Assembly: GCA_028871455.1 (NCBI GenBank)
Contig: JAGWNF010000003.1
Location: 62,001 to 126,000, forward strand
Reading direction: 5' to 3'
DNA: 64,000 nucleotides
Origin: Alphaproteobacteria bacterium
GTDB taxonomy: Bacteria; Pseudomonadota; Alphaproteobacteria; ATCC43930; CGMCC-115725
Position numbers and translations under genes: made by a program. Within the stretch, counting starts at the first letter, position 1, and every line of letters starts with the position of its first letter. Shown one piece after another: positions 40,664 to 46,712 of this stretch. The notes under the pieces are model-generated. The model had not been told where the DNA came from and did no database searches. It saw only the letters and a list, made by a program, of their open reading frames with translations.

Positions 40664-41458
40664 TTACCCCGCCGCGGTGACCGCCCGTCGCGCCATCACG
40701 CCGACGAGATGCGCGCGGTATTCCGGGCTGGCGTGGATGTCGCCGTTGAGCCCGTCCTGCTTCTGTGCGATCGACTTGATGGCGTCGGCCGAGAAGTTCT
40801 TCGCCAGTGCCGCTTCCATCTCCTTCTGGCGGAAGACGCAGGGGCCCGCGCCGGTTACCGCGACGCGCACGCCGTCCTTATGCTTCGCCACGAATACGCC
40901 GACGATGGCGTAGCGCGAGGCCGGATTGGGGAACTTCATGTAGGCGGCCTTTTCGGGGATCGGGAAGCTCACCGCCGTCACGATCTCGCCCGGTTGCAAC
41001 GCGGTCTCGAACATGCCCTGGAAGAATTCGTCGGCCGCAATCTTGCGCTTGTTGGTGATCACCGTCGCGTTGAGCGCGACCACCGCCGCCGGATAATCCG
41101 CCGCCGGATCGTTGTTCGAGATCGAGCCGCCGAGCGTGCCGCGGTTCCGGACCGCCGGATCGCCGATATGCGAGGCGAGATGGGCAAGGGCGGGGATCGC
41201 CTTCTTCACCTCGGCGGATTCCGCGACCTCGACGTGCCGCGTCATCGCGCCGATCGCCACGGCGTTGCCTTCGCGCTTGATGCCCCTGAGCTCGCTCAGG
41301 CCGTTCAGGTCGACGAGATCGCTCGGCTTCGCCAGCCGCTGCTTCAAGGTCGGGAGCAGCGTCATGCCGCCGGCGACGAGCTTCGCTTCGGGCTTCTGGG
41401 TGATCAGCGCCGACGCGTCCGCGACGTTCTTGGCCTTGTGGTATTCAAAATTGTACAT
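40664..41458 (-). CDS. coxM: CO dehydrogenase-type medium (FAD) subunit
   Basis: The 264-residue protein has the FAD motifs of the molybdenum hydroxylase medium subunit: [15 protein letters not shown] and the [17 protein letters not shown] segment, with the C-terminal CO_deh_flav domain. It passes electrons from the iron-sulfur subunit to FAD. It is 57 bp downstream of coxS, in the order S-M. No catalytic large subunit lies between, before or after. Whether the substrate is CO, an aldehyde or another compound cannot be known without that subunit. Confidence 0.9.
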
Positions 41459-41515
41459 CGCTCGGTTCCCTTGTTCGCTAGGCGGCGGCGCGGCGGCTGC
41501 CGGCCGGGCGCGCGC

Positions 41516-41992
<477 letters not shown>

Positions 41993-42080
41993 TTCGGAAC
42001 TCCTCGGTGGCGGGCGCGGGCGACGCGCGGCCTTTATTGGTTGCGGCGATTGTCGTGCGGGAAATCGGCCCCGGTCAAGC

Positions 42081-42677
42081 TCAGCGGGTGAAGAAATAGA
42101 GCATCGCCGCCACCAGGGCGACGAGGATCGCCGCCCACACCACCGGCGGCAGGCGCATGCCTTCGACGGGCGATGCCGGCGCGCGCTCCGGCAGGCGCGC
42201 GACTTCCGGTGCGGGCGCCGCTTCGGCGGCCGGTGCCGGTCCGCCGACGATCGCGGCGAACTTGGCGAAGAAATCGTCGGCGTATTTACGTGCCGTGCTG
42301 TCGATCAGGCGCGAGCCGATCTGCGCCAGCTTGCCGCCGACCTGCGCCGTCACCTTATATGTCAGCGTGGTGGCGTCGCCGTCAGGCGTCAGATGCACCT
42401 CGGCGCCGCCCTTGGCGAAGCCGGCGACGCCGCCCTGGCCTTCGCCGCTGATCCTGTAGCCGTTGGGCGGATCGAGATCGGACAGCGTCACCTTGCCGCT
42501 GAAGCGCGCGCTCACCGGGCCGACGCGTGCCTGCACCTTGGCGGTGAACTCGGTCGGCGAAATCTTCTGCACTTCCTCGCAGCCGGTGATGCATTGCTTC
42601 AGGATGTCGGGCTCGTTGAGCGCGTCCCATACCTTTCGCTGCGGCGCGGCGACCCGGTATTCGCCGGTCATGTCCAT
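42081..42677 (-). CDS. coxG: CoxG-type SRPBCC membrane anchor protein
   Basis: The 198-residue protein starts [35 protein letters not shown], the CoxG signature, with the helix-grip fold up to residue 145, a proline/alanine linker and a C-terminal membrane helix ([16 protein letters not shown]). CoxG recruits CO dehydrogenase to the membrane. The upstream frame is longer, but the family start is at 42677. It opens the Cox-like cluster, 116 bp from the divergent antiporter gene. Confidence 0.9.
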
Positions 42678-42793
42678 GGCGGCACCCATCGTTTTTGCGC
42701 GCCGACCGTAGCGCCGGCCTTCCGCAGGGACAAGCGCGCGACCCGCCGGGGCGGGTTGCGCGGCGCGCGCGGCCTCGGCCATAGTCCGCCTCG

Positions 42794-44125
42794 ATGGCCG
42801 GGGGACTTCCATATGGCAGCCTGGCGTGGGGGCTGCCCTTCGTCGGATTGTTGCTGACGATCGCGATCGCGCCGATCGTCGTGCCCACGGTCTGGAACCG
42901 GCACTACGGCAAGATCGTCGCGCTCTGGTCGCTCGTCTTCGTCCTGCCCGATTTCTTCGCCGAAGGTTTCGACGGCACGCTCCGGCGCCTGCTCGACGTC
43001 GGCCTCAACACCTACCTGCCGTTCGCGCTCCTGATGGGCGCGCTGTTCATCATCACCGGCGGCCTGCGCATCCGCGGCGCGCCGCACGGCACGCCCGGCG
43101 TCAACACGGTGCTGATCGGCATCGGCGCGGTGGCGTCGAGCCTGATCGGCACGCCGGGCGCGTCGCTGCTGATGCTGCGGCCGCTGGTGCGCGCCAATCG
43201 CCACCGCGTGCGCAGCGCGCACATCTATGTCTTCTTCATTTTTCTCGCTTGCAACATCGGCGGCGCGCTGACGCCGCTCGGCAATCCGCCGCTGTTCCTG
43301 GGCTATCTGCGCGGTGTGCCGTTCTTCTGGCCGGCGACGCATCTGTGGCTGCCGACGCTGGCGCTGACGGTGGTGCTGCTGGCGATGTTCTACGTCATCG
43401 ACCGCTCGATCTACCGCCGGCAGGTGACGGAGGACGTGCGGCCCGAGATCGAGAAGCTGGGCATCGACGGCGGCATCAACCTGCTGCTGCTGCTCGGCAC
43501 CGCGGCGACGATGATGCTGCGCACCTATTATCCCGTGCCCGGCGCGGTCACGATCTTCGGGGTGACGTGGGCCTTCGACGATATCGTCTCCGACGTGCTG
43601 TTCATCGCGTTGGCGTTGCTGTCGCTCAGGCTGACCAAGCCGGCGACGCGGCAGGAAAACACCTTCGTCTGGTCGCCGATCGTCGAGGTCTCCATCCTGT
43701 TCGCCGCCATCTTCGTGACGCTGTCGCCGGTGGACACGATCATGGCGGCGGGCGGCCACGGACCGGCGGCGGCGCTGTTCGAGCAGATGTTCGTCGGCGG
43801 CGTGCCCAACGATCAGCTCTTCTACCTGGTTCCCGGCATGCTCTCGTCGGTGCTCGACAACGCGCCGTCCTATCTCGTGTTCTTCGGCCTTGCCGGCGAC
43901 AACGCGACGCTGCTGGTCGACAAGCTGCCCGTGACCCTGGCGGCGATCTCGGCCGGCGCGTCCTATTTCGGCGCTATGACCTATATCGGCAACGCGCCAA
44001 ACCTGATCGCCAAGGGCGTGGTCGAAAGCTATGGTATCAAGATGCCGAACTTCTTCGCCTATGTCGGCTGGTCGACCGTCTGTCTGCTGCCGGTTCTGTT
44101 GCTGACCATGTGGGTGTTCTACTGA
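42794..44125 (+). CDS. NhaD-like sodium:proton antiporter / citrate-type transporter
   Basis: The 443-residue protein has about 11-12 membrane segments, the paired conserved motifs of the ion-transporter superfamily ([21 protein letters not shown] and [17 protein letters not shown]...[16 protein letters not shown]), which are typical for NhaD. It likely exchanges sodium for protons. It is divergent from coxG and overlaps the DUF192 gene (TGATG). Confidence 0.85.
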
Positions 44126-45731: not shown

Positions 45732-45808
45732 GCGCCCATAGCTCAGAGGATTAGAGCAGCCGCCTTCTAAGCGGCAGGTCGTTGGTTCGAGTCCAACTGG
45801 GCGCGCCA
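45732..45808 (+). tRNA. tRNA-Arg (TCT)
   Basis: Acceptor GCGCCCA/TGGGCGC, anticodon stem GCCGC/GCGGC with loop CTTCTAA (TCT), T-loop GGTTCGAGTCC and encoded CCA. Its 3' part is copied 810 bp downstream. Confidence 0.97.
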
Positions 45809-45811
45809 ATC
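45761..45811 (+). repeat. att-like repeat, left copy inside tRNA-Arg
   Basis: These 51 bp, from the anticodon arm through the tRNA 3' end, recur at 46571-46621 with one mismatch (G at 45774, A at 46584). Confidence 0.9.
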
Positions 45812-45922
45812 GTATTAGAAGATTAGCGCGGCATCTGGGTGAGAGGCGGCGGCGGGCGTCGGCCTATGGTGCCAAAGTCGCACCGGTTTGCGTCTCAGCT
45901 CCGCTGCTAACGGGGAACAGCC

Positions 45923-46510
45923 ATGGTTGAGCAATTTTTTCGCGCTCACCAATATACCGTTTCTGCGGTCGGGGCCTTTGCTACGGTTGCCGTAGTCATA
46001 GTGTCTTTACTTCTTGCGTTCGTCCAACGAAGGGCCAACAGAACAAGTCTCAAGGCCTTCGTGTCGAGAACTGTGATCATCCATGACACCATCGATCCAA
46101 AGAACCGGCCGAGTTACATTTCTGTCAATGTGACAAATACGGGCATTCTGCCTCTTAGGATACCATTTTCATTTTTTCATTGGCGGGCACCGTTCCGACG
46201 GGGAACCTATATGGTCAACCCGCTCGATTGGTACGGGACAGATACTTGGATTCAGAAGAAGCAATATCCAGTTGAGATTCTACCACGCACGGCGCAGACC
46301 TTTTTTGTCTCAACCGCCAAAACGTTCTTGGAAGAGCTTTCAAAGATCATGCATGGCAAGGACGCCATACGTCCTTGGCAATTCCGACGATTGCGAGTGG
46401 TGATCGTGACCGACGATGGCGCGCAATTTCATACCCACGTTGGAAAAGAAGTTCGACAGGAACTCGAGCGGCTTGCCGCCCAGCACACTGGTCACAACAG
46501 TCCCAGGTAG
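45923..46510 (+). CDS. Unknown membrane-anchored protein in the tRNA-Arg mini-island
   Basis: The 195-residue protein has one N-terminal membrane helix (about residues 13-35, VSAVGAFATVAVVIVSLLLAF) followed by a basic QRRANR stop-transfer and a soluble, beta-rich domain (YISVNVTNTGILPLRIPF, a Trp/Phe-rich middle, FRRLRVVIVTDDGAQFHTHVG). The domain recalls small immunoglobulin-like folds but matches no family I can name. Codon use is much less GC-rich than flanking genes, which suggests foreign origin. It is the only gene of the island. Confidence 0.72.
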   Translation: MVEQFFRAHQYTVSAVGAFATVAVVIVSLLLAFVQRRANRTSLKAFVSRTVIIHDTIDPKNRPSYISVNVTNTGILPLRIPFSFFHWRAPFRRGTYMVNPLDWYGTDTWIQKKQYPVEILPRTAQTFFVSTAKTFLEELSKIMHGKDAIRPWQFRRLRVVIVTDDGAQFHTHVGKEVRQELERLAAQHTGHNSPR

Positions 46511-46570
46511 TGGGTTCATCAATAAAGAACTCGACGGATGTGATTGCGCTGCTCGCTGGCGGCCTTGTGG

Positions 46571-46621
46571 CGCCTTCTAAGCGACAGGTCGTTGGTTCGA
46601 GTCCAACTGGGCGCGCCAATC
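46571..46621 (+). repeat. att-like repeat, right copy (partial tRNA-Arg)
   Basis: Duplicate of the tRNA-Arg 3' part (51 bp, 1 mismatch). It lacks the 5' half, so it is not a functional tRNA. Confidence 0.9.
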
Positions 46622-46625
46622 CTAC

Positions 46626-46712
46626 CTAAGCACGCGCCTTCCTCATTGCCTCCCAAATCCGTCCCGGCGTTGCCGGCATATCAAACTGCGCGACGCCGGC
46701 GCGGCGGATTAC
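46626..46712 (-). pseudogene. 3' relic of a molybdenum hydroxylase large subunit (CoxL/XdhA-like)
   Basis: On the minus strand, about 28 codons ending in TAG read VIRRAGVAQFDMPATPGRIWEAMRKARA in parts; the segment QFDMPATPGRIWEAM closely resembles the extreme C-terminus of CO/xanthine dehydrogenase large subunits (DMPATPERVW pattern). Upstream on that strand the next 370 bp belong to an unrelated membrane-protein gene, so the rest is missing. This may be the tail of the catalytic subunit absent from the Cox cluster 4 kb away. Short length makes chance resemblance possible. Confidence 0.45.

Follow-up and report, generated by a model that had tools for sequence, protein, structure and literature searches.

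An integrase-less, one-gene unit of 810 bp at a tRNA-Arg(TCT) gene: a probable minimal CIME-type element in an alphaproteobacterium

Cis-mobilizable elements (CIMEs) have kept both att sites but contain no genes for integration or transfer, and their derivation from an ICE or IME by deletion belongs to the definition (PMC5704250, PMC7563491). Classical CIMEs are 1.2-13 kb in size, and microCIMEs, which are gene-free, are 130-220 bp (PMC7563491); a passage of the latter paper cites 215 CIMEs at tRNA-Lys of Streptococcus agalactiae. Islands without an integration module are also present at the ssrA gene of Dehalococcoides, where 15 of them have been described (PMC3146451). Islands at tRNA genes are detected by Islander, which needs an integrase gene, and their sizes peak at 13.6 and 39.9 kb (PMC4383910).

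We analyzed a stretch of 64,000 nucleotides, hereafter called the window, from an alphaproteobacterium whose genome assembly comprises 3.0 Mb in 51 contigs and is 96% complete. The window contains an 810-bp unit that is very probably an acquired, integrase-less, minimal stand-alone CIME-type element located at the 3' half of tRNA-Arg(TCT). This kind of element is already known, and the 810-bp unit is a small example within its range of sizes. It resembles the CIMEs of Streptococcus salivarius and S. agalactiae, in which attL and attR include the 3' end of the target gene and enclose cargo only (PMC7563491, PMC5704250). With 0.81 kb and one gene, it falls between the microCIMEs and the classical CIMEs (PMC7563491). 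Unlike the Streptococcus CIMEs, however, it stands alone, without an ICE or IME in tandem and without a known parent; no parental ICE, IME or island was found.

The unit shares with the Dehalococcoides islands a flanking repeat of an RNA-gene 3' end and the absence of an integrase, but those islands form tandem arrays at the tmRNA gene, and islands related to them use a serine recombinase (PMC3146451). As in the P4-type tRNA islands of the Islander class, one end is a regenerated tRNA and the other a displaced 3' fragment, but there is no tyrosine integrase gene inside and its 0.81 kb is far from both size peaks (PMC4383910). Finally, the unit is reminiscent of integron cassettes with VCR-like attC sites, which consist of a single small gene and its own recombination site, and distant homologues of its cargo have an attC-like repeat directly behind the stop codon; the ends of the window unit, in contrast, are tRNA halves.

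The repeat pair and the DNA it encloses

The tRNA-Arg(TCT) gene, detected by ARAGORN at positions 45732..45808 on the plus strand, is an intact target gene, and its 3' part constitutes the tRNA-proximal att-like site. An initial annotation of the window had claimed a 51-bp repeat with one mismatch located 810 bp downstream of this tRNA half, and this was reproduced. A repeat finder gave a proximal direct repeat copy of 51 nt at 45761..45811, running from the anticodon stem to the 3' end of the tRNA plus ATC, and a distal, att-like copy of the tRNA 3' half at 46571..46621, both on the plus strand. The two copies are identical at 50 of the 51 positions, which far exceeds chance, and the slightly longer segments 45761-45814 and 46571-46624 are identical at 52 of 54 positions, with a spacing of exactly 810 bp. 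The only mismatch within the 51 nt is a G to A change in the distal copy, located in the 3' strand of the anticodon stem. No further site matching the 31-nt core of the repeat with up to three mismatches was found in the 3.0-Mb genome. The distal copy is probably the displaced original 3' end of the tRNA. The two att sites of a CIME are represented here by the 51-nt repeat and the intact tRNA, and we refer to them as att-like. A match to the Rfam family Plastid-ycf2 was discarded, being weak, below the gathering score and equivalent to the antisense of the tRNA.

The DNA between the repeat copies has a simple organization. A non-coding left end (45812..45922), in which a consensus scan gave neither a sigma-70-like promoter nor a terminator, is followed by a single cargo gene of 195 codons on the plus strand (45923..46510) and a non-coding right end of 60 bp (46511..46570). 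The cargo gene is the sole sizeable plausible ORF between the copies; it is intact and has the same orientation as the tRNA. Its GC content is 0.503, compared with 0.661 for the window, which places it among the lowest 0.1% of 588-bp windows. Its GC3 of 0.541 and its CAI-like index of 0.29 contrast with the ranges of 0.81-0.92 and 0.61-0.81, respectively, obtained for nine native genes. The cargo gene is foreign in its codon usage and has very probably been acquired horizontally. Searches by tblastn with tyrosine-integrase proteins did not reveal any trace of an integrase in the unit, so that the earlier description of a single, less GC-rich gene without an integrase stands. With one ORF, no integrase remnant and a cargo protein lacking a significant family match, the unit contains no recognizable genes for integration, transfer or mobilization.

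A distant family of the cargo protein

The cargo protein gave no significant match in Pfam, NCBIfam, PHROGs, PADLOC or, by sequence search, PDB; a Pfam match to the NgoFVII C-terminal domain (E 0.04) was below its cut-off and was not used. Phylum-wide searches with the protein resulted in weak matches in two genomes, G503 and G626. When the family of G503, which judging from the VCR-like repeats is presumably Vibrionaceae, was then searched with a profile, G1180, G1256 and G1292 matched strongly and four other genomes matched less well. The window protein is only 17-25% identical to the family members. The homology is good despite this low identity, because the window protein obtains 28 bits (p ~8e-11) with a profile built from four other members, and when the same profile was run against 5,580 ORFs, unrelated ones stayed below 6 bits, family members and a weak match to one protein, L053, excepted. 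The L053 protein, which is encoded beside a type I restriction gene and has the same architecture, matched the profile with 12 bits and was left out of the family alignment.

The profile search that the initial annotation had suggested for the 195-residue protein therefore uncovered a distant family, part of which resides in integron cassettes. An attC-like repeat directly follows the homologous gene in G503, G1180 and G1256, and in G503 this gene lies within an array of such repeats. The G503 homologue is an integron cassette, and several of its relatives are single-gene cassettes. The G626 homologue is located in a region with tyrosine recombinases. In the window unit itself, nothing matched the G503 attC, and an exact pair of attC core boxes was not found either; the exact-pair scan is weak on its own, because it also missed the known attC sites of the controls. 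Longer family members of 228-257 aa, with a transmembrane segment and a beta-sandwich, are encoded at L115-L118 in the family of G503, and at least one of them (L118) lies between attC-like repeats.

An AlphaFold model based on six sequences (pLDDT 72.8, pTM 0.62) consists of a helix spanning residues ~2-38 and a beta-sandwich; the single-sequence model (pLDDT 45) was too poor for use. The best Foldseek matches are ApaG proteins with an E value of 3.7e-5 but TM-scores of only 0.28-0.49, which makes an Ig-like fold likely but does not imply that the protein functions as ApaG. Judging from this moderate-confidence model, the cargo likely combines an N-terminal transmembrane helix with an Ig-like beta-sandwich. 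Most likely, the cargo gene encodes an Ig-like domain protein that is anchored in the inner membrane and has an accessory function. Of the earlier description as a membrane-anchored protein of unknown fold, the anchor was retained, whereas the fold can now be narrowed to this predicted sandwich. The proposal that the cargo is possibly defensive gained no support. There was no PADLOC or NCBIfam match and no significant PHROG or Pfam match, which leaves it outside the known defence families searched, and the element has no second gene that would make up a defence operon. A novel defence role is conceivable.

The tRNA-Arg(TCT) site in other genomes

Two same-genus genomes, G002 and G003, were readable at the tRNA-Arg site; G001 gave no match there. 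Both have one copy of the tRNA-Arg, identical in sequence, and lack the 810-bp unit, and the order tRNA-Pro, NDUFS4-like gene, tRNA-Arg is conserved in both of them. Immediately after the distal repeat copy, the window starts with (A)TCCTAC-CTAAG, to be compared with TCCTATGCCAAG in G003 and CCCTACGCCAAG in G002. It then continues with a chromosomal flank (46633..46706, minus strand) that is 78% identical to the DNA downstream of the G002 tRNA-Arg, followed by a region with an MFS-like gene that the two genomes have in common. In G002, ~430 bp of unrelated DNA separates the tRNA-Arg from this common flank, and in G003 the tRNA-Arg is followed by other genes up to the contig end. As each of the two carries other DNA beside the tRNA-Arg, the region is generally variable. 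The search for empty sites in relatives was thus successful in that single-copy sites without the unit exist, but other DNA adjoins the tRNA in both cases and they are not perfect empty sites.

Positions 46626-46706 of the window contain an ORF tail ending in FDMPATPGRIWEAMRKARA, which resembles the C-terminus of the CoxL/xanthine-dehydrogenase large subunit and, by sequence resemblance, is probably a gene remnant; its G002 counterpart has a one-base gap. Genes that we take, from reading their sequences, to be coxM-, coxS- and coxG-like are present at 40664-42812, with no coxL between coxM and coxS. At this position, between coxM and coxS, G002 holds ~2.3 kb extra.

The cargo gene was not found in 60 relatives. 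Among 385 genomes of the class, its own copy was the only good match, with three weak others (E 0.004-0.007), and genome contigs, viral contigs, plasmids and phages did not contain close protein relatives. A gene kept at this place in all relatives without the second repeat, which would have spoken against an inserted element, is therefore not what we observed. The initial annotation had also suggested looking for the same 810-bp unit elsewhere; it is single-copy in its own genome, and no second genome among those searched has one.

We surveyed tRNA-Arg loci of relatives and of more distant Alphaproteobacteria (57, then 18 re-fetched, then 60 further). No substantial second tRNA-Arg half was present in more than 100 other loci, some of which have little downstream DNA; besides the window, only G004, G043 and G020 have one. 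In G004, which belongs to the same family but another genus, a 48-nt tRNA-Arg half recurs with a period of 1,523 bp, and the element has a GC content of 0.525 (L119, contig C65, 8045-9644, minus strand). It lacks an integrase, and its one gene encodes a 288-aa protein that includes a hydrophobic segment and does not match Pfam significantly. In G043, a member of another family, a 46-nt half recurs with a period of 2.69 kb (L043, contig C60, 6080-8846). This unit also contains no integrase, and its genes (HTH_3 plus HipA_C/Couple_hipA) are HipBA-like, of the toxin-antitoxin type. These are two additional, newly found integrase-less mini-islands at tRNA-Arg(TCT). The occupant in G020 (same family, another genus) is known by its integrase and a tRNA half: contig C326 ends inside tRNA-Arg, and contig C339 contains a P4-type integrase gene (Arm-DNA-bind_3), cut at the contig end, whose start is separated by ~165 bp from a tRNA-Arg 3' half.

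The repeat starts at the same position, in the anticodon stem, in the window, G004, G043 and G020, and in the three integrase-less units all cargo genes have the same orientation as the tRNA, which may be due to chance. The units of G004 and G043 have CAATTAGTTA in common at nearly the same offset after the tRNA (a match reached in 2 of 1000 shuffles); this motif is missing from the window unit. Searches for integrase remnants in the G004 and G043 units gave only weak matches (E 0.03 or worse). The presence of three integrase-less units at one tRNA suggests that this type of element recurs.

Origin of the unit

The following route would account for the unit. A P4-type tyrosine integrase (Arm-DNA-bind_3), like that of G020, would have inserted the element by a crossover in the region of the anticodon loop, with regeneration of the tRNA. 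This integrase would have belonged to a larger island that was since deleted down to its cargo, or would have been supplied in trans. From then on the cargo would stay in place, and any renewed movement would require the arrival of a matching integrase or of an adjacent island at this tRNA.

For the first of these sources we see about an even chance: the unit would be the last cargo of a decayed P4-type-integrase island at tRNA-Arg, from which an internal deletion took the integrase and nearly all else. In G020, of the same family, this tRNA is occupied by an element with an integrase, and CIMEs, which by definition are decay products, are common (PMC7563491). However, no remnant of an integrase or of any other gene is left in the window element, and the distance from the gene to the distal repeat is only 60 bp, against the ~165 bp between repeat and integrase start in G020. 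Moreover, a neat deletion leaving intact cargo and clean ends would have been needed three times for the three small units.

It is possible, though rather doubtful, that the integrase of another island, recognizing the tRNA-Arg(TCT) 3' half, acted in trans and inserted the unit at its present small size. Three unrelated units without an integrase (0.81, 1.52 and 2.69 kb) with the same tRNA, the same repeat start and co-oriented cargo would fit such a route, as would the shared offset of CAATTAGTTA in G004 and G043. Against it, the window element is without this motif, its unit is single-copy and was not found in the other genomes searched, and no G020-like integrase was detected in G004 or G043 at the cut-off used. 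The helper integrase that the initial annotation had envisaged was not found in the window's own genome either, where no recognized tyrosine recombinase adjoins a tRNA-Arg half; the one integrase beside such a half is that of G020, from another genus. The part of the genome missing from the assembly could hold a tRNA-Arg integrase. Three integrases were rejected as helpers: that on contig C5 is part of a tRNA-Thr(CGT) island (its 49-nt half copy lies on C5, the tRNA itself on C43), and those on C9 and C36 adjoin tRNA-Thr(GGT) and tRNA-Leu(CAA), respectively. A tyrosine recombinase on C14 has no assigned target tRNA, and two others are, as we read their sequences, presumably XerC/XerD. We did not find a phage using the tRNA-Arg site, because the att core matched only phage-borne tRNA-Arg genes in the viral contigs.

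An assembly artefact or chimeric contig is highly unlikely: the assembly is of metagenome type and in 51 contigs, but the 51-nt repeat is below usual read lengths, the contig is 256 kb long, the flanks on both sides are homologous to one relative (G002), and comparable units are present in other assemblies. Least likely is that the tRNA-Arg gene was partially duplicated in tandem and that insertion or decay followed; the repeat is indeed part of a tRNA gene, but it encloses a foreign gene, relatives have a single tRNA copy, and the distal copy is an att-like fragment rather than a decayed tandem tRNA, because its start lies at the anticodon stem, like that of the fragments in G004, G043 and G020, and a 5'-half remnant is missing. 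When the 29 nt before this copy were aligned with the tRNA 5' half, the score did not exceed that of shuffled sequences.

A more far-reaching reading, which we consider improbable, is that the tRNA-Arg(TCT) 3' half in these Alphaproteobacteria is a docking site for single-gene cassettes. Short circles, each with nothing but a tRNA 3' half and a co-oriented gene or gene pair, would be moved in trans by P4-type integrases of other islands. If true, these would be a tRNA-based counterpart of integron cassettes with a common pool of cargo genes; behind the idea of a common pool is the finding that the family of the window protein also occurs in integron cassettes. Through this family, the cargo ties an alphaproteobacterial mini-island to membrane-anchored Ig-like proteins encoded in such cassettes. 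One-gene elements flanked by tRNA are probably under-counted, because Islander and other finders that depend on an integrase are designed to pass over them; the tRNA halves give the exact ends of such units.

The tRNA-Thr(CGT) island in the window's genome has a different arrangement. A 38-nt 5' half of tRNA-Thr(CGT) is present on contig C43 (L106, 1917-1954), ~290 bp before an intact tRNA (2245-2319), and on C5 (L107, 2479-3919) the 3' half adjoins the integrase. This island seems to leave the original tRNA split, and a complete tRNA may have come with the element as a replacement.
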